Positions 5,310-48,921 of a stretch of DNA of 64,000 bases are shown piece by piece. The notes under the pieces are model-generated. The model was given only the letters and a program-made list of their open reading frames with translations. It was not told the origin of the DNA and did not search any database. How positions within the stretch are numbered: position 1 is the first letter of the stretch; every line of letters starts with the position of its first letter. Where the stretch lies: positions 1 to 64,000 of the IMG/VR virus record IMGVR_UViG_3300027706_000002; one strand, 5' to 3'. This stretch comes from a virus. Position numbers and translations under genes: made by a program.

Positions 5310-5999
5310 CTAGAGGTAGATAATTCCTACCCCGCAGCTGCGGCCTTGCCAGTGGTAAAGCCATTGATCATAGGAGTTACGGATACCGTTCCTTTCGACC
5401 TCCTTCCATTCTTCCGTTTCGAGGATCTGTTGAGTTCGGTAGCCTCGATTCTTGAGCACTCGGAAGGCTTCTCCGGGAATTGGATCCTGGATGTCGTGTA
5501 GGAAGGCGATGGATCCGGGTCGTAGTAGGGGACGGTAGAAATCGAAGTCCCGCTGGAAAGCTGTTTTGTCTCCGTCCAAAAAGAGAACGTCGAGCGCATC
5601 CCCCTCGAGAAACTTTACCACCTTGGGGTAGTTACCTATCTCGTAGCTCGATCCGGGAATCCAAAAGAATTGGATCTGCGGAAAGGCTTTCTCGAATTCC
5701 TCAGCGTAGGGAGTACCCTTTATCTCGATAGAGATGACCTTGCGAAGCGTCGGCAGCCCCTTGCACCAATGGTATAGACCTCCACCCTTATCGGAACCGA
5801 TATCGAGAAGCGTGCGCGGCCGGACCTTGCGGGCTGCTTGTAGCATTGTCCGAAGCTCTTGTTTCCTTTGGAGAGGGAAGAAGTATCCGGTTTCGAAGAC
5901 TTCGGGGTAGAGATCCCACCCTGCGGGCCGGCTACTATCGTCTCGAAAGAACCGTTGAATCTCTTCTAGCATTCCTTCCGGAAATTTCTCTTCACTCAT
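5310..5999 (-). CDS. Class I SAM-dependent methyltransferase
   Basis: A 229-residue protein with motif I LLDIGSDKGGG near residue 65 for SAM binding, a following acidic residue in ISIEIKG, and a motif IV-like strand VLFLDGDKTAFQRD near 139. The pattern resembles methyltransferases related to cephalosporin-hydroxylase and macrocin-O-methyltransferase families that act on sugars or small molecules. Starts could be GTG 6002 or ATG 5999; GGAG is best spaced for the ATG, which overlaps the upstream stop. Its neighbour is a second, different methyltransferase. Substrate unknown; a sugar is suggested by context. Confidence 0.8.
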   Translation of the reverse strand: MSEEKFPEGMLEEIQRFFRDDSSRPAGWDLYPEVFETGYFFPLQRKQELRTMLQAARKVRPRTLLDIGSDKGGGLYHWCKGLPTLRKVISIEIKGTPYAEEFEKAFPQIQFFWIPGSSYEIGNYPKVVKFLEGDALDVLFLDGDKTAFQRDFDFYRPLLRPGSIAFLHDIQDPIPGEAFRVLKNRGYRTQQILETEEWKEVERNGIRNSYDQWLYHWQGRSCGVGIIYL

Positions 6000-6580
6000 C
6001 ACTTCTCCAGATAAAAGGACCAGGGGCTCCCGTCCAACTCCACGACCAGGTGAATCGGTCTACCGCCGATCTCGCGGGCAAATTCGAAGAGTACGGGTTG
6101 TAGATATCTTCCCCAACCGCCGAGATGTTCTCCGGGACAGACGATATCATGTCCTCCCAGGATGCCTCCGGGACGCAGTTTCCGCCACCACAGGCGGAGA
6201 TCCTGGAGGAAGTATTCGGGTTGGTGATTTCCGTCGATGTAAACGAAATCAATCGACTGGGGAGCGAAGAGGTTGTGAGCTTCTTGGCTCGTGAGTTTAA
6301 GGATTCGAGCCTTATTCTCGAGACGTTGACGAGCGACGGCTTCATCCTCTTGTCGGTTTTTGTGACTAGTTGGATCTTCAGGATCGTATCCCGATAACCA
6401 TGGATCGACGCAGTGGAGAGTACCTTCCGTCCATTGTTCAAGGAAACGGAGGGCGAAAAGACCTTGATCGGTTCCAATTTCGACGGCGGTTTCTTTCAAG
6501 CCCCTTTGGATAAGGAAGGAGCCGAAGTTGTGACGTTCGATAAAGGGAGCCTGGTGTAGAAGGAGGTTATTTCTTTGCAT
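5999..6580 (-). CDS. Class I SAM-dependent methyltransferase (Methyltransf_24-like)
   Basis: A 193-residue enzyme with motif I AVEIGTDQGLFALRFL near residue 32 and the block DFVYIDGNHQPEYFLQDL near 110, followed by LRPGGILGGHD, which is typical of Methyltransf_24 enzymes that often methylate sugars. It overlaps the radical SAM gene upstream by 14 nt and abuts the other methyltransferase downstream, indicating translational coupling. No membrane segment. Confidence 0.85.
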   Translation of the reverse strand: MQRNNLLLHQAPFIERHNFGSFLIQRGLKETAVEIGTDQGLFALRFLEQWTEGTLHCVDPWLSGYDPEDPTSHKNRQEDEAVARQRLENKARILKLTSQEAHNLFAPQSIDFVYIDGNHQPEYFLQDLRLWWRKLRPGGILGGHDIVCPGEHLGGWGRYLQPVLFEFAREIGGRPIHLVVELDGSPWSFYLEK

Positions 6581-40966: not shown

Positions 40967-43024
40967 CTACCCTCGTAAGCTCCGTAACAGAGCTCCCCAG
41001 AATTGGTAATTACGAACCACCTTGGGACGCGGTGGGTCTACAACTTCTTCGGCCCCAGCCGGCACCTCACCGTCCTCCGGCTTCCGTTGTGCGTCAACCG
41101 TTGCTACGTGGGGTGGACGATAGGTTTCTCGGGTTTGCTTCAGCTTCTTGGAATAGCGTTTCGCTTCTCCACGACCTTGGCTCGTCGCTTCGGCTTCTTC
41201 AGCTCCCCCTCGGGTATCGCGAGCGTAGGAAAGATTGGCGGCTGGGGTCGGCTTTTCGAGTTCCTTTTCCCTCGAAGTCTCACTCGCGTGCTCGGCCTTC
41301 GAAGACGGATTACCTTGGGCTGATCCGAGAACGGGTGGAGGGGGTTTCGGCTTACTAAAACCCGGTGGAGGAGCCGGCTCGAACCCATGCTTATCGGCTA
41401 GAGCTTCCGCCTCTTCTTGTTTATCCTGTTGAGCTTCCTCAGCGGTTTCCAAAACAGCTTCTGCCTCTTCCTCGTCCCAACCGAGAATGCGAGTCAGGTA
41501 ATCTCGGGGAGGAACAACTCCTTCGACTCCGCCGGCCACATAGGCCGCGATGGCTTGGGTCGTCTGTAGAGCAATGGCCGCTTTGTCCTTCTTCGTCGTC
41601 GAGTCGAGATCCGGCCATTCAATCGAGTACCCGGAAGGTTCCGGCAAGACTCTCAGAAGAATCAATCGGTCGATAAAGGGAGCGATAATCCTGGGAGTAA
41701 TGTGGAACTTCTGCCTCGCTCGTAGACGGTCGTTCCAGGCCGCGTCGTCCTGGGAAGAAGCGAGTTCGCCGCGTTCACTCCCCATAAAGACTCGCAGCGG
41801 TACGCCCAGCTTAATACAGATCGCTTCCAGTTGCACACGGATCTGCGGACTCGGATCTACCACCTGGGGAGCAAGGGATTTCGCGGTCATCCCCAACAAG
41901 CTAATCCAACGTTGTAGTCCGCTGTGATAATCCTCCATCATCTGGCGCAATCCGCCGATGTCGAGGATCGCGTCCCCACCCATCTCGGGATGCGTCTCGA
42001 TGGATAACCCCGGAAAGGCCCCCCGCCAATACATCTCTGCAGATCCTCCATAGAGCTTACGGAGATCGAGGATCGTGTTGAGAACGGCCCGCATCCGAGG
42101 AGCCCCGAAGATCTCGGAGGACTGGAGATTATCGGCGATATGGATAACCCGGCTCCAGTGGACGCGGACCGTCGCGAGAGGAAGGCCGATCCCAGTGTGG
42201 GGTTGCCTGGGATCGTTGAGGGTAACGCGGTACATGATAGGCATACCGAAGCGAGGGCTATACATACTCGCTTCGTACTGTACCACTTGCACGAGATGTT
42301 CGTCGAAGACCCGCAGAAACAGCAGCCTGCGCTGCTGGCTGTCCTTCCGCTGCGGTTGCATCGGCGTGAATTGAACTCCGAAATACTGCGCGTCGGTTCC
42401 CATCGTCGAGGCTAACGGTTGCTCGAGAGCCTTGGGTAGTTGTCCGCCGTAGATATCCTTCGAGGTCAGATCGCTCACCCCGGTCACGTCGATCGGTGCC
42501 CCATCCGGCGGTGCGCCGTCTACAGGTTCCTCGAGCAGTTTTCCGTCGTCCAATCCCAACAGCAGAATTCCGTAGGTGCCGATTCCTGACATAATATCGG
42601 CTCGAAGCAGGTAACTCCACACGAGGGAGCCTTCTTCGTCCTGTAACCAGGACTCGCCGTTAATCATCAGGTTAGAACCCAAAGCGTCCCAGGCTTCCTC
42701 GAACTCCGTCGCGTTTTCGGCAGACTCGTCTTCGTACACCGTTGGACTCATCTGCCAACACTCTTTCGGATAGACCTCCACGACCCGTTCGGCGATCGGG
42801 TTACGATCGTAGAGACTGCGATAGAGTTCAGCGTTAAGAGCGTCGGGCCAACCGCACTCGTTCTCGATATCTTTATGTTGAGAATTGAACTGCTTAAAGA
42901 ATTCCTGGCGGCAGGTCCACCAGTTATTAACCAGCTGCTCCAGACGAGCGAAGCGTTGTTCCTCGTTGAGAGTGGGAACGCTGTTTCCTGCCGGTTTTGT
43001 CGTCTTACGTGACGTGGACGCCAT
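40967..43024 (-). CDS. Portal protein
   Basis: 685 residues. N-terminal half shows portal-like features of the DUF1073 type: SLYDRNPIAERVVEVYPKECW near 68, ADIMSGIGTYGILLLGLDDG near 142, SRVIHIADNLQSSEIFG near 290 and PLRVFMGSERGELASSQDD near 405. The C-terminal 170 residues are acidic then Pro/Lys-rich and probably disordered or head-inward. It follows the terminase genes and precedes head genes. GAAGGAG lies before the ATG. Confidence 0.87.
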   Translation of the reverse strand: MASTSRKTTKPAGNSVPTLNEEQRFARLEQLVNNWWTCRQEFFKQFNSQHKDIENECGWPDALNAELYRSLYDRNPIAERVVEVYPKECWQMSPTVYEDESAENATEFEEAWDALGSNLMINGESWLQDEEGSLVWSYLLRADIMSGIGTYGILLLGLDDGKLLEEPVDGAPPDGAPIDVTGVSDLTSKDIYGGQLPKALEQPLASTMGTDAQYFGVQFTPMQPQRKDSQQRRLLFLRVFDEHLVQVVQYEASMYSPRFGMPIMYRVTLNDPRQPHTGIGLPLATVRVHWSRVIHIADNLQSSEIFGAPRMRAVLNTILDLRKLYGGSAEMYWRGAFPGLSIETHPEMGGDAILDIGGLRQMMEDYHSGLQRWISLLGMTAKSLAPQVVDPSPQIRVQLEAICIKLGVPLRVFMGSERGELASSQDDAAWNDRLRARQKFHITPRIIAPFIDRLILLRVLPEPSGYSIEWPDLDSTTKKDKAAIALQTTQAIAAYVAGGVEGVVPPRDYLTRILGWDEEEAEAVLETAEEAQQDKQEEAEALADKHGFEPAPPPGFSKPKPPPPVLGSAQGNPSSKAEHASETSREKELEKPTPAANLSYARDTRGGAEEAEATSQGRGEAKRYSKKLKQTRETYRPPHVATVDAQRKPEDGEVPAGAEEVVDPPRPKVVRNYQFWGALLRSLRG

Positions 43025-43238: not shown

Positions 43239-44180
43239 CTACCCTCTCTCGTGGATCGCTCCCACCTTACGCCGCGTACCGACGTGTTCACTTCCCCACA
43301 CAGCCAACACGAGAGCGTCGGCCTGATCCGGGGAACACCCAAGTAATTCCTTGAGGGTCTTTTGTTTCGATTGTGGATCCTTTTTATCCTTCGGGAGAAG
43401 GTACAGCCTTCCCTCAGGATCGTAGGTTAATGGAATCGGAGCGAGTTGCCGACGAAGCTCGGTATAGTCAGCGGGCAAAGCAAAACCCTCGGGGTTAGCG
43501 GCCGGATCCAACTTCGAGCGTAGCAATCCATACATCTCCGCTCGCCGGTTAACGTAAGCGTACTTCTCTTCCTGCTGTTCGCGACGATCGGATACGGGAT
43601 AACGGCTGTAGCGAATCTCCAGAGACGGAACCTCGCCGAAAGCCACCGTGACGACCTCGTATCCCATCGACCGCAGGCGATCGGCGTGTTGTTTTCCTCC
43701 TCCGCCGCGATCCATGTAGACCTTGTGGGAAGGAACGGAGTGCTTCTTGGCGAAGGCTAGTAGCTCGCTGGTAATCACCGAAGTATCGGGGGTCTTCTTT
43801 GCAACGAGCTCGATAAGACCTCGCTTATCGACAGCGGCCATCGTCGTCTCCGCTCCCCCTTCTCCTGGATCCACACCGATAGCAATCGCGGTACGGGCCA
43901 CATAACGCAATTCCTCCGCACGTCGGGCTGCAGCGTTTAACCAATCCGGAGGAAACAGTAGATTCTCCGCACCCTCATAGAACTCCGCGTCCAGGCCGAT
44001 ACACTGACGGACCTTGTCCCAAGTGACTCGCCGTTTTGCGTAATCGATCCAAGGTAAGACACCCGGCAGTAAGACTTCTCCCGTCGGCTCCAAGCCTCTC
44101 GACCTCTGCTCCAATCCCCAACGCACATTAGGGCTGTCTTCGGCCCGGATGCGGATAATCTTGCGGTAGTAACGAGACAT
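43239..44180 (-). CDS. Terminase large subunit, nuclease half (split)
   Basis: 313 residues carrying the RuvC-like nuclease of TerL: Asp104 in AIAIGVDPGEGG, the MDRGGGGKQHADRL block near 155, and SPDQADALVLAVWG near 290 with the last catalytic Asp. Its start, RYYRKIIRIRAEDSPNVR, is what normally follows the ATPase motif in a one-chain TerL, so this is the C-terminal half. The ATPase half is a separate gene at 44730-45380; two small genes lie between. The pair would act together in DNA packaging and cutting. Confidence 0.87.
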   Translation of the reverse strand: MSRYYRKIIRIRAEDSPNVRWGLEQRSRGLEPTGEVLLPGVLPWIDYAKRRVTWDKVRQCIGLDAEFYEGAENLLFPPDWLNAAARRAEELRYVARTAIAIGVDPGEGGAETTMAAVDKRGLIELVAKKTPDTSVITSELLAFAKKHSVPSHKVYMDRGGGGKQHADRLRSMGYEVVTVAFGEVPSLEIRYSRYPVSDRREQQEEKYAYVNRRAEMYGLLRSKLDPAANPEGFALPADYTELRRQLAPIPLTYDPEGRLYLLPKDKKDPQSKQKTLKELLGCSPDQADALVLAVWGSEHVGTRRKVGAIHERG

Positions 44181-44183
44181 ACA

Positions 44184-44501
44184 CTAGCTCGGCTCAGAAG
44201 GAGGTTGTGCGGGAGTGGGAGCGTAACCGGGGGTTTCTCCCCAGGAAAGCATTGCCCCTCGTAAGGCAGCGTAAAGACTCTCGAACATTGCGGCGGAGAT
44301 CTGGACGAGAGCCAATTTACCGTCCGGCAGATAACAAAGCAGAGCAACGCTGCTCTTTCCTGATTGCATACCTCCTTGTAAGACGATAAAACGATCGAGA
44401 GAGATTTCTACTACTTCCTCTTCGGCTAGTACTTCCTCTTCGGCTAGTTCCGGAAAAGGAGGCGGATCGCCCTGGCGTAAAATCTGAATCCTCGTATGCA
44501 T
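44184..44501 (-). CDS. Small protein inside the split terminase, 105 aa
   Basis: N-terminal acidic Pro-rich part and a compact domain LDRFIVLQGGMQSGKSSVALLCYLPDGK near 36-63. GGMQSGKS fits a Walker A pattern by chance or design, but no Walker B is present, and the block looks like a small phage beta-domain (ends with SAAMFESLYAALRGAM). Overlaps the upstream stop as TGATG. Function unknown. Confidence 0.6.
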   Translation of the reverse strand: MHTRIQILRQGDPPPFPELAEEEVLAEEEVVEISLDRFIVLQGGMQSGKSSVALLCYLPDGKLALVQISAAMFESLYAALRGAMLSWGETPGYAPTPAQPPSEPS

Positions 44502-44785
44502 CAGTCGTCTCCGTTGAGAAGGTATTCGACGGCCTCCTGGGGAGAATCGAAATAGCGAATCCCTGCCGTCGTAAGAAGGATCTCGCCACTCTTAACGATC
44601 CTACCTTTATCGTCCAAGTAACTACTCAAGCATCTCCACAAGAACCACTTGCCAGGTTGGATAGGTCGATTCGGGCTGCCGGAAGGATAGATCCTCGATC
44701 CATCGCTAAGCAGATAGAAACCGAATTGTTTATCCGGAGCGGGCAGCCGCACTTTGCCCTGTTTCTTGCGCGAGAACATCCCCAC
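44501..44785 (-). CDS. Small protein inside the split terminase, 94 aa
   Basis: Basic N-terminus (FSRKKQGKVRLPAPDK) then a beta domain (FGFYLLSDGSRIYPSG, WFLWRCLSSYLDD) and a short C-terminal helix (SPQEAVEYLLNGDD). A good AAGGTGGGG site precedes ATG 44785, which lies inside the last 56 nt of the ATPase gene. No homing-endonuclease motif seen. Confidence 0.62.
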   Translation of the reverse strand: MGMFSRKKQGKVRLPAPDKQFGFYLLSDGSRIYPSGSPNRPIQPGKWFLWRCLSSYLDDKGRIVKSGEILLTTAGIRYFDSPQEAVEYLLNGDD

Positions 44786-45380
44786 CTTGCACCCCCCTGT
44801 AGAAGAAGTTACTGCACGGATAGGGGTTGCCGATAATCAGCTTGCGCCGTGCCCAAGTATCCGAACGTTCGTAGCTCACGTCGTCTACACCACTCGCTTC
44901 GTCAGCGATAAACAACGTCCGGGGAATCCCGTCCCCCTGTTCTGCTATATGATGTCCGAGCATCCCTTCGCCCTTGGCCGCCACTCGGCCTATGAGATAA
45001 CTCAGACCACAGACCTTTCCTTTGACCACTTTGCGGATGTGGAGATGATTCACGAGTAGCGGTCCACCGTGGTTCGTATCCAAAGGTTGCGCAGCCGATT
45101 GAACGAAGCGACGGATTTCACCCCAGAGCACTCCCTCTAGCTGCGTGTGGTCTACCGAGGTCGTCACGATCCTACAAGGATGTCGACTGAGAAAGAACCA
45201 CAACGCGGTGAGTCCAGCGATAAAATCCTTACCAAGCATATTCCCCGCCGGTACATAGGTCTCATCGTTGTCCTGTACGGAATAGAGAATCTCCCACTGC
45301 TTATCGTACAGTCGGATATCGGGCCAATAGCGGCTGATAAACCGAACCGGATCAATGACCTTCGTTGGAATTGTCGCCAT
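44730..45380 (-). CDS. Terminase large subunit, ATPase half (split)
   Basis: 216 residues with the packaging ATPase: a degenerate Walker A PAGNMLGKDF (residues 44-53), Walker B TLFIADEAS (155-163, Asp160-Glu161), and coupling motif IIGNPYPCSNFFYRG (182-196). The chain ends 20 residues later in a different-looking tail, just where the nuclease half should begin. Overlaps the small-subunit gene by 29 nt. It would need the separate nuclease polypeptide to make a working TerL. Confidence 0.88.
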   Translation of the reverse strand: MATIPTKVIDPVRFISRYWPDIRLYDKQWEILYSVQDNDETYVPAGNMLGKDFIAGLTALWFFLSRHPCRIVTTSVDHTQLEGVLWGEIRRFVQSAAQPLDTNHGGPLLVNHLHIRKVVKGKVCGLSYLIGRVAAKGEGMLGHHIAEQGDGIPRTLFIADEASGVDDVSYERSDTWARRKLIIGNPYPCSNFFYRGVQGGDVLAQETGQSAAARSG

Positions 45381-45957
45381 TGGAAACCTCGCTCAGCTGA
45401 CCGATCCGTTCCTGGAGCAGACGAGTTACAGGATTGGCGGCGAGATCCTGCCGCTCGTAAAGCTCGTCCCAATCGATCCCTACGTTGACGGTTTGCGAAG
45501 AGTTGGCTTGGAAGAAGACTTGGAGATGCGGATCGTTCTTGAGTACACCTAGCAGCTTGAGACGGGTTTCGATACAGCGTTGGACGGTTTCCAGGTAAGC
45601 CACATTACCCGTTTGTCCCTTGCGCTGCCGCTCTTCGGAAATCCCGTTGGCGTTTTCGCGTACCGTAATCGTCTCTGCATCCTTTTGGCTTCTTTCCCAA
45701 GCAGCCCACGCTTCTTTCTCTACCGCATCCATTCTCGCCAGTTCTTCCGCCAATCGAGCCGCATAGTCTTGGGTCGCTCGTTCCTTCCACATCTCCCGAA
45801 TCTTCTTCAGGAGCACGTGGATACGAGGTTGCGTGACGCCCACCTTGGCCGCGATTTGCCGCTGTGAATAGCCCATCACGTAAAGTTTCGCTACCTCAGC
45901 GTACAATTCTTCTTTCGCACGCATCGAGGGACGTTCAATTCGTCTTCGTCCTGGCAT
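45352..45957 (-). CDS. Terminase small subunit
   Basis: 201 residues with an N-terminal helix-turn-helix (VAKLYVMGYSQRQIAAKVGVTQPRIHVLLKKI, 22-53) that would recognise the packaging site, followed by long helices (ARLAEELARMDAVEKEAWAAW) for oligomerisation. It precedes the TerL ATPase half with overlap, as expected for TerS. GAGG lies 9 nt before the ATG. Confidence 0.82.
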   Translation of the reverse strand: MPGRRRIERPSMRAKEELYAEVAKLYVMGYSQRQIAAKVGVTQPRIHVLLKKIREMWKERATQDYAARLAEELARMDAVEKEAWAAWERSQKDAETITVRENANGISEERQRKGQTGNVAYLETVQRCIETRLKLLGVLKNDPHLQVFFQANSSQTVNVGIDWDELYERQDLAANPVTRLLQERIGQLSEVSNGDNSNEGH

Positions 45958-46059: not shown

Positions 46060-46710
46060 CTACGTCGTTTTCTCGATCGCTGGTAATCCGGCGATACGCC
46101 GAACGTGGTCCAAGGATTCAATCACTCGTACACCGTCCAGGTAGACGTAGCTTCCAGCAATCCGAGGACTCAGGTCGATAAAGTGAACTTCTCGAATCGG
46201 TTGGAGAAGAACCATCTTCGGCCCCCAATTAAACCAGAAAGTACTACGACAGTAAATCGATTCCGTAAAGCCTTGGCGAAAACTGCAAATAAACTCTCCC
46301 AACTCTGAACGAAGTTTGTCATAAAGATGGACATGATACCAGAAGTTCGACTGAAGAAGATAAGTCTTATCCGAGGGATACTTCGATACTCCGCAGTCTG
46401 CGGAGAGAGAATCGTAAGCCTCGTGTAGCCAGAAGGACCAACAGTTATCCAGTAACTCCCGCTCGCGGCGGCGCAGTAACTCGCCCCGCGTTAGGGCGGC
46501 AGCTGGCCCGGGTTCTGTTCGGTAGAGTAAGATAGTGTGATCAGGATGCGGAATTGCCGTCGTTAGTTCGATCTGCAACCGAATGAACTCCGCTCGCTCT
46601 TCCTGACCATGATCCTCCAACCAATCAGCGTAGATGAGGCGCAGGCCCCTATCCGAAGGTTCTCTACAGATCGCCTCGAGAAATCCTCTATCGTCGGAAA
46701 AGGCCCCCAT
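46060..46710 (-). CDS. TIGR02996-domain protein (planctomycete marker)
   Basis: 216 residues. The N-terminal 50 residues match the TIGR02996 'repeat-companion' domain: FLEAICREPSDRGLRLIYADW then LEDHGQEERAEFIRLQIEL. In cellular genomes this domain is essentially restricted to Gemmata-like planctomycetes. The remaining part is a mixed domain rich in Tyr, Trp and Phe. It follows the primase-helicase gene directly (CAGGAGGGG site). Function unknown even in the host; in a phage it probably mimics or interferes with a host system. Confidence 0.85.
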   Translation of the reverse strand: MGAFSDDRGFLEAICREPSDRGLRLIYADWLEDHGQEERAEFIRLQIELTTAIPHPDHTILLYRTEPGPAAALTRGELLRRRERELLDNCWSFWLHEAYDSLSADCGVSKYPSDKTYLLQSNFWYHVHLYDKLRSELGEFICSFRQGFTESIYCRSTFWFNWGPKMVLLQPIREVHFIDLSPRIAGSYVYLDGVRVIESLDHVRRIAGLPAIEKTT

Positions 46711-48921
46711 CTAGAACCCCTCCTGTTGCTCCTCGCGAAGTACCCGCAAGTATAAACCCCGTACCTTTTCCGTGAGCTTCCAACGTTGTCTTCGCGTACC
46801 CGGACAGACATAGGATTCTACCGCTCCGATCCGACGTAGAAACCGCAAAAAGAGGCTCAGACGTTCGCTTGATTCTCCGGTTAGAATCTCCAAAGCCTGT
46901 AGATCTCGGCCTTGCGAGCCTACTTTGGCGAGCTCCTTCGTGAGCGTCAAGATGAGACCTCGAGCCGTATCCAGAGCCACCCTTCGGACTCTTCGCATCA
47001 CTTCCGCGTCCAGTTCCGAACGATTCAATACTACTGCTAAACAAGCAGCTAACCGTTGGATTTGCGTGACGAGACGGGCCGCAAATTCTCGCTCGGCTAC
47101 CTCCTGTTGCTTCGTCGAGGGACGAGCTCGCATAAAGGCTACCAGCTTTCCGTAGCGGATACACTGATGGATTGCCTCATCCGACATGTGGATATTCCCC
47201 AGGAGCTTCGTAGCATTGTTCCGCAGATACTCCACGTAACCCCCCGTGAGACGCATCGCCTGGACAATCTCCGGCGGAAACTGTGTATCCATACTTCCGT
47301 TCGCTTCCATGCCGAGATTGCGACGGTTCCGATTTGCTAATCGTAACAGAACCTCATCCTCCAACGTATCATCGATCCCATCCATAATGACACAATCGAG
47401 AAAGCGTTCCCCCAATTCCGAAGAGTCGAGAATCCGTAACGAGCTCGTTCCGCACAAGATCCAGGTCATACGGATCCCCTGGTAATCTCGGCTCATCCGG
47501 TTACGGTAGTGGGTGCGAGACGTAGTGTCGTAGATATCTCGAGCTTCTGAGAGAATCTGTCCGAGATTGGGAGATTGGAGAAGAGTATCGCCGTCCTTCG
47601 TGATAAGCGTCTTATCTTTAAGCCGAATCAGAAGAGAATTGTCTTCCTTACCGTCGCGATCGGACTGAAACCCGCTGTGAAAGCCCCGAATCGTACTCTT
47701 GCTAACCACGTATTGTTTTGCTACGGCTAGAGCTTCACACAAGGTACTTTTACCGCAGGATGCAGGACCCATAATCTTACACCACAGTTGGTCCCCTACC
47801 GCCTTCGTCGAGGTTACGCAAGCCAGCATCACACTCAGAGCCCGATCTAAACCTTCTGTCCACTTTAGGGCTTTCTTCCAGGAGTTAACCAGGGTTTTCC
47901 AATCAGTACACTCCAGAGGGTCCATATCCAAGGCCCCCTGCGCGGGTCGCTCTCCTTCCCGACGTACCGCTTTCCAATCCTCCGGAGGCAGTGAAATCTT
48001 GGCGAACAGTTGTTCGGCTCGATAGAGACGTTGCTTAACGGTAGTGCCCTGGCGGAGCCAATCTCGTACATCGTATCCGTCCGCTAAGGCCGGGTCGTAT
48101 CCCTGCGGACCCCACAGAAGAATCTGTACGGATTTCGGTGGTTTCGTTGCTGCTTCGAGCTTCCGCAAGGCTCTTTTCATCCCATCGGCTCCTGGGGAAA
48201 AGAAACCTCCTCCAGCCGTTCGTTCGCGAGGATGATCCGAGTCGTACAGAAGAGAAACCGTCTTCCCCTCGAACATCTCCACCCACTCGTCCAGAAACGT
48301 AGAACAAGAAGGAACTGCCAAGACGTTGGCGTGCCGATCGCGTTTTCCCAATCGCAGAGTTTCCCACAAGGCAATAGCGTCCCAGGGGCCTTCACACAGG
48401 TAAACAAGGGACTTACCAGCGTGGTAGAGATTGCAGCCGAAGAGTTGGTGGCCTCCCACGAAACCTTCTCCCCCTTTCAAGGCTTCGTGAGGAGCCGCCA
48501 ATAGAGCTTTCCGTTGGGGAGTTCTGGCATAGCGGTAGAGTTGTACGAGTCTCCCGTCCGCTAGCCAACCCGGGAAAAGCCACTCGCTCGTTATTACCGA
48601 ACGAGCGAGGCCCCACTGTTGTAGCGTCCCGGGGTCCAAGAGTCCACGCTCTTCCGCTAACTCTTTCCAGTCTTTTGTGGAGGAGAAGCTGATCGCGTAT
48701 AGTCTACGCAGAAATTCCAGGGGGTTGCCGTGTTCTCCGCAGACCTTACAATCCCAGCTACCGTTCTGCGGATTGGCGTGGAACTTGTTTTCCTTACCGC
48801 AAAAAGGACAATCGGCTATAGCTTGAGATTCTCCTTCTTGGTATCGAAGTTCTACCCCGTAGAAAACAAACGGTTTGAGGTTGCGAGGAGTAGTTGAAGA
48901 CGGCGTGGTATTTCTTGGCAC
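46711..48921 (-). CDS. DNA primase-helicase-like replication protein
   Basis: 736 residues. A zinc finger (Cys38, Cys41, Cys58, Cys61 in CPFCGKEN and CKVCGEHG) as in CHC2-type primases is followed by a TOPRIM-like part (Glu177 in LCEGPWDAIAL, Asp227/Asp229 in LLYDSDHP). A P-loop ATPase follows with Walker A GPASCGKS (385-392) and an arginine-bearing segment GERFLDCVIMD near 515, resembling SF3/VirE-like phage helicases. It likely primes and unwinds at the phage fork. The start is GTG 48921 with GGAGGA at 10 nt. Confidence 0.85.
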   Translation of the reverse strand: MPRNTTPSSTTPRNLKPFVFYGVELRYQEGESQAIADCPFCGKENKFHANPQNGSWDCKVCGEHGNPLEFLRRLYAISFSSTKDWKELAEERGLLDPGTLQQWGLARSVITSEWLFPGWLADGRLVQLYRYARTPQRKALLAAPHEALKGGEGFVGGHQLFGCNLYHAGKSLVYLCEGPWDAIALWETLRLGKRDRHANVLAVPSCSTFLDEWVEMFEGKTVSLLYDSDHPRERTAGGGFFSPGADGMKRALRKLEAATKPPKSVQILLWGPQGYDPALADGYDVRDWLRQGTTVKQRLYRAEQLFAKISLPPEDWKAVRREGERPAQGALDMDPLECTDWKTLVNSWKKALKWTEGLDRALSVMLACVTSTKAVGDQLWCKIMGPASCGKSTLCEALAVAKQYVVSKSTIRGFHSGFQSDRDGKEDNSLLIRLKDKTLITKDGDTLLQSPNLGQILSEARDIYDTTSRTHYRNRMSRDYQGIRMTWILCGTSSLRILDSSELGERFLDCVIMDGIDDTLEDEVLLRLANRNRRNLGMEANGSMDTQFPPEIVQAMRLTGGYVEYLRNNATKLLGNIHMSDEAIHQCIRYGKLVAFMRARPSTKQQEVAEREFAARLVTQIQRLAACLAVVLNRSELDAEVMRRVRRVALDTARGLILTLTKELAKVGSQGRDLQALEILTGESSERLSLFLRFLRRIGAVESYVCPGTRRQRWKLTEKVRGLYLRVLREEQQEGF

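Follow-up and report, generated by a model that had tools for sequence, protein, structure and literature searches.

Organisation of the terminase locus

About one member in five of the terminase family described here encodes the large terminase subunit (TerL) as two genes, and in the virus analysed the enzyme very probably consists of two polypeptides that assemble with each other. The window, i.e. the whole stretch of 64,000 nt that was analysed, is contained in a record of 66,371 bp, and its terminase locus is a split TerL and not a standard TerL: ATPase and nuclease are not found on one polypeptide but in two genes with stop codons between them.

On the minus strand, the genes are arranged in the order TerS-like gene, ATPase gene, o94, o105, nuclease gene and portal gene. 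The TerS-like gene (201 aa; 45352..45957) has an HTH N-terminus, matches HTH profiles and Terminase_5 (E 0.016) and adjoins the terminase; it overlaps the ATPase gene by 29 nt, and weak tblastn relatives of it were seen in four related loci (L006, L010, L018 and L020). The next gene (216 aa; 44730..45380) encodes the first part of TerL, the ATPase core or ASCE subdomain, as judged from homology and fold match. It is followed by the two small genes o94 (44501..44785) and o105 (44184..44501), both with the codon usage of coding sequence, and by the gene for the second part of TerL (313 aa; 43239..44180), which comprises the last ATPase strand, the lid and the RNase H-fold nuclease. The portal gene (40967..43024; PF06381 with E 7e-22, PHROG_146 with E 3e-57) lies directly downstream of the nuclease gene, and this order matches that of the relatives. 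TerL is located between TerS, called from its HTH and position, and the portal. The first-pass annotation had described an ATPase and a nuclease gene with two small ORFs between them, and all these ORFs were recovered on the minus strand at the positions it gave.

From the ATPase gene to the nuclease gene, all four genes overlap or abut. The overlap of the ATPase gene with o94 amounts to 50–56 nt, depending on the choice of the o94 start, the o94 stop and the o105 start share one base (TGATG), and 3 nt separate the o105 stop from the ATG of the nuclease gene. The ATPase frame follows the family sequence up to GVQGGD, beyond which it continues for about 15 residues through the beginning of o94, in a frame other than that of o94. 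The GGD codons of the ATPase gene (GGTGGGGAT) at the same time form a ribosome-binding-like stretch together with the o94 start (AAGGTGGGGATG). A single copy of the nuclease was found in the 66,371-bp record.

The start of o94 is probably the ATG at 44779, behind an AAGGTGG motif. With the rest of the phage as reference, the codon-usage scores per codon of o94 and o105 in their own frames are 0.063 and 0.057, the ATPase gene having 0.070; spurious ORFs score -0.079 on average, yet 5 of 63 reach at least 0.069. Searches of Pfam, PHROGs, viral_contigs and the fetched loci gave no relative of either o94 or o105. A Walker A-like string, GGMQSGKSS, is present in o105 without any other P-loop feature, so its interpretation as a P-loop ATPase was rejected, as was that of a duplicated piece of the terminase, there being no similarity beyond this string. 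An 18-bp tandem duplication with one mismatch (44408–44443) inside o105 encodes the acidic EEEVLA/EEEVV. Scans for sigma-70 promoters and terminators stayed at chance level.

Conserved motifs and selection

The ATPase gene has the features of an ASCE ATPase, namely Walker A (AGNMLGKD), the DE of Walker B (DEAS) and motif III (IGNPYP), all conserved across the family, in which Walker A ends with KD and not with KS or KT. The model of a fused relative (L002) aligns with the terminase ATPase cores of T4, P74-26 and Sf6. The ATPase half gives no match in Pfam or NCBIfam, resembles a PHROG of unknown function only weakly and is without relatives in genome_contigs. The nuclease part matches the terminase family PHROG_2 with E 1e-10 over residues 64–301, a partial match, and has the acidic active site of an RNase H-fold nuclease, with D104 and D157 conserved and D285 nearly so. 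Matches of the nuclease half in genome_contigs are distant (the best, 36%, in an archaeal MAG), and there is none among characterised phages.

Split and fused genes do not differ in their conservation of Walker A, the DE, motif III and the nuclease acids, and every family-invariant residue is kept in both halves of the window. In two pairs of related split genes, dN/dS was 0.04 and 0.24 for the ATPase part and 0.09 and 0.10 for the nuclease part (pairwise 0.04/0.09 and 0.24/0.10); in fused pairs it was 0.02–0.08. Purifying selection acts on both parts in the related split pairs. In the window, the pieces of TerL are intact and co-directional; that such pieces are under selection was measured on the related pairs.

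Position of the cut in the fold

The names ATPase and nuclease, which the first-pass annotation had given to the two halves, do not describe them exactly, since the model of the fused relative L002 (built from a 66-row alignment, pLDDT 92.4) places the cut within the ATPase domain, some 70 residues ahead of the nuclease domain. Residues 2–271 of this model correspond to the ATPase domain including the lid (P74-26, Z 22) and residues 273–502 to the nuclease domain (E217 and Sf6, Z 19.8). Motif III is found at 178–183, the cut at about 196–204, the following strand at 205–209 and the lid helices at 218–263. The second protein would thus consist of the last beta-strand, the lid and the nuclease. 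In the solved structure of D6E, an ASCE subdomain and a lid make up the ATPase domain, which a linker connects to the nuclease, and in motor models the lid passes on the power stroke (PMC5727402). By this domain plan, the cut separates the ATP-binding core from the lid.

The model of the second chain of the window (pLDDT 90.6) leads to the same division, with the nuclease domain starting at residue 72–73 and about 71 residues before it: the last ATPase strand is placed at about 4–14, the lid at about 15–71 and the nuclease at about 72–305, residues 73–300 matching the nuclease domain of Sf6 gp2 (Z 20). The N-terminal segment of the isolated second chain, which carries the strand sequence YYRKIIRIRA, is modelled with low confidence and forms no strand, whereas the fused model shows this segment as a strand with high confidence. 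This suggests that the segment needs the ATPase core as its partner and that the chains share a sheet, and the two chains should, as far as the models indicate, interlock through this shared beta-sheet.

Fused and split relatives

The first scan yielded 22 viral contigs whose N-terminal parts match the ATPase half at 50–75% identity. Most of these relatives are fused; nearly all have one reading frame, with 0–55 nt between the matched ATPase and nuclease stretches, and among the 74 fused genes of the first survey, 70 had a gap of 12–57 nt between the domains. The earlier statement that the nuclease part normally continues the same chain is borne out by these fused relatives. Because they encode both parts in one frame, the split in the window is a genuine division of what is normally one gene and not a chance neighbourhood.

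A wider survey was made with alignments of both halves, counting only members in which both were present. Among 112 distinct terminases, 87 are fused, 24 are split at the same linker and one (L276) is broken elsewhere by a frameshift inside a domain, the sole break outside the linker in about 1.5 kb. What had been presented as one odd genome is a condition that recurs within the family. The breaks sit in a linker of about 20 residues and almost never in the other approximately 490 residues; the binomial p of about 4e-33 for 24 of 25 breaks in the linker (60 of 1,530 nt) is a guide only, since the splits are not all independent. For several splits there is more than one assembly (L020/L009, L108/L109, L102/L103 and L129/L131). 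L084 was rejected as an extra break because its second match was spurious. Two further contigs that look split are truncated by contig ends and stand outside the split count. In L006, the ATPase half (5663–6310) ends with a stop at the same linker and other genes follow, starting with a 117-aa cysteine-rich ORF with a signal-like N-terminus; the nuclease half is absent from this 45-kb record. In L251, a nuclease ORF is found without an ATPase in the 335 nt upstream.

In about twelve split members the two genes overlap or abut, leaving no space for an intron. The halves overlap by the 4 nt of ATGA in L165 and L149 and by GTGA in L127, and a stop is followed by ATG within a few bases in L137, L108, L069 and L020 (stop-NN-ATG in the last). 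In the other split members the halves are 0.1–3.1 kb apart and the cargo between them is varied. It consists of one ORF in L029 (66 aa), L129 (79 aa), L253 (229 aa) and L174 (163 aa, HNH-like by eye, with no match in Pfam or NCBIfam), of four small ORFs in L118 and of five to six in each of L073 and L115; in L160 (659–2412) it comprises genes for an acetyltransferase and for a sigma-70 factor in which regions 1.2, 2 and 4 are present, and in L101 an HNH_3 gene (PF13392, E 1e-13), a phosphoesterase-like gene and further genes. With its two small genes o94 and o105, the window falls in the middle of this range. L073 and L115 share similar small ORFs between the halves (121/120 aa and 133/127 aa, compared by eye), and cargo can therefore be inherited with the split. 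The fused terminase L018 (5609–5850) has an in-frame insertion of about 80 residues at the same linker, so that the loop tolerates long in-frame insertions too.

Evolutionary history of the split

The evolutionary tree was based on the joined TerL halves. The distribution of fused and split states needs 14 changes on this tree (13–15 in the bootstrap trees), and the best-supported branches force at least 5 of such changes. A single origin of the split was rejected, the AU test giving p 5.6e-50 for one split clade. Six more distant phages from annotated genomes, i.e. phages of Streptomyces, Enterococcus, Curtobacterium and Pseudanabaena, a methanogen virus and phage C72C1, are all fused, each with one gene of 1.4–1.7 kb over the match. 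Since these outgroups from characterised phages are fused, splitting appears to be derived and recurrent; the fused state is most likely ancestral, with fission having occurred many times and refusion being possible.

Alternative explanations for the interrupted gene

The cargo could be the cause of the split, if a homing endonuclease or similar mobile element had broken terL, from which a two-chain enzyme would still follow. Freestanding endonucleases split other phage genes (PMC2988022), and an HNH-type gene lies between the halves in two split relatives, recognised by profile in L101 and by eye alone in L174. This cause is nevertheless unlikely, because o94 and o105 match no endonuclease family in Pfam or PHROG, as expected from the first-pass annotation, which had seen no homing-endonuclease signature, no target duplication flanks the insert of the window, the inserts vary between loci, most split relatives are without a recognised endonuclease and about half are without an insert. 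Homing endonucleases could account for a few of the split members at most.

Considerably less probable is an intron of 550 bp, self-splicing or of an unknown kind, with full-length TerL being made from a spliced mRNA. Group I introns in terL are documented in Jug phages (PMC12363816) and in Bastillevirinae (PMC11878797), and the insert is positioned where the relatives have a single reading frame. The search for group I and group II intron cores, however, found no Rfam family above the gathering threshold, either in the window or in the 13 split loci scanned, in agreement with the earlier remark that no intron was obvious, and no credible match in the insert at E up to 10. Moreover, the insert is packed with coding ORFs tiled by overlaps, and its RNA folding is no better than that of shuffled sequences (z 0.44). 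Many relatives are split at the same place without any insert, and these cannot hide an intron. An intein was rejected owing to the stops and frame changes between the halves, and a programmed frameshift in the window is impossible across the 550-nt insert.

Slightly further down in probability comes a terminase broken in this record, i.e. a decaying provirus or defective genome in which the halves are pieces of a pseudogene. The record is one uncultivated assembly with no replicate, a scan for its o105/nuclease junction having given no second copy in another contig, although near records may be hidden, and such records may include defective genomes, but all invariant family residues are kept in both halves, the genes have their own start codons, neighbours in operon order and coding scores, and the same state recurs under purifying selection; it is this selection and conservation that make decay unlikely. 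The least probable explanation is an assembly or sequencing artefact: metagenome contigs are sometimes chimeric, but an insert of 550 bp with two coding ORFs and a GC content of 0.52–0.53 (0.54 in the window) bears no signature of error, the same architecture is found in replicate assemblies of relatives, and breaks elsewhere number 1 against 24.

Proposed two-chain enzyme and start signals

The first-pass annotation had left two possibilities side by side, two polypeptides or an event rejoining them. The former is clearly favoured, whereas rejoining is opposed by the insert-free splits, whose genes overlap or abut in different frames, and by the lack of an intron match at the split loci tested. 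The best reading is a heterodimeric TerL, in which, to judge from the models, the chains would reassemble non-covalently across the shared beta-sheet; we infer that both are translated, bind each other and form a working motor. The first chain would be the ATPase core and the second the last ATPase strand, the lid and the nuclease, both translated in sequence from one operon of overlapping or abutting genes. On docking, the shared sheet would be completed and the lid closed over the ATP site, and the heterodimer would replace each TerL monomer in the motor.

Fission presumably takes place in the flexible loop that follows the conserved (K/Q)-G-G-D motif, where a stop codon and a nearby start codon would be enough, with the GGD codons often providing a ribosome-binding-like sequence. 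A (G/E/A)-(G/A)-(D/N/E) motif at the end of the core could be located in about half of the genes. In fused genes, pairing of the coding DNA with the anti-Shine-Dalgarno sequence is stronger at this motif than at about 93% of the other positions in the gene (n=31, median percentile 0.07). Selecting the motif by its amino acids favours purine-rich codons, which biases this comparison. The recurrent fission could be explained simply, by a ribosome-binding site already present in a flexible loop. In the window, the GGD motif serves o94, and no ribosome-binding sequence was found at the nuclease ATG, which should therefore depend on translational coupling to o105. After the split, the gap would be an ordinary intergenic site in which cargo may settle, in the window o94 and o105.

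It is conceivable, if somewhat doubtful, that the motor of the family is a hetero-oligomer whose chains are made, dosed and possibly exchanged separately, and that the split, having arisen many times, is favoured. If so, a possible advantage could be that the nuclease/lid chain is swapped or titrated independently of the ATPase.

Comparison with known terminases and other split enzymes

TerL is commonly taken to be a motor subunit of one chain and serves as a universal marker gene of phages. The large terminases of Sf6 (gp2), P74-26, D6E, HK97 and T4 (gp17) have the same ATPase-lid-nuclease fold, motifs and neighbourhood (PMC5727402), but they are single chains, whereas in the window the chain is cut between the core and the last strand with the lid. 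Essential enzymes made of two polypeptides are known from split NrdA of Aeh1, which is fully functional with mobE inserted in nrdA, and from phage 25, where 43A and 43B co-purify with polymerase activity (PMC2988022). The TerL described here resembles these two, as well as the split DNA polymerase 43A/43B of phage 44RR and the split topoisomerase subunit 39/60 of T4. Those splits, however, belong to single lineages and are mostly tied to homing endonucleases or to one spacer, while in the present family the same point has been split many times, mostly without a recognised endonuclease. In Jug phages and Bastillevirinae, group I introns likewise interrupt the coding sequence of terL, but splicing restores one chain; the split TerL gave no intron match, and overlapping genes run from one half to the other.

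Interrupted terminase genes are also represented by UL15 of herpesviruses, which is spliced so that the parts are rejoined into one chain, and SPO1-like phages are an example of terL with an intron. The open-access literature on split terminases contained introns or nothing relevant, and no report of a naturally two-chain terminase or of recurrent TerL fission at the loop between core and lid was found there.

Natural two-part motors would allow core, lid and nuclease to be purified, mutated and mixed separately, and the disputed coupling of ATP hydrolysis, lid movement and DNA movement could become directly testable. Pipelines for annotation and phylogeny that expect a full-length TerL will miss or mis-score such phages.

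Neighbouring genes

Between the TerS-like gene and a primase-like gene, the minus strand encodes a protein with a TIGR02996 domain (46060–46710; E 9e-20). This domain, known from Gemmata genomes, hints at a possible planctomycete host. The adjoining 736-aa gene on the same strand (46711–48921) has an N-terminus with a DnaG-type zinc ribbon and a P-loop, and is probably a primase-helicase.
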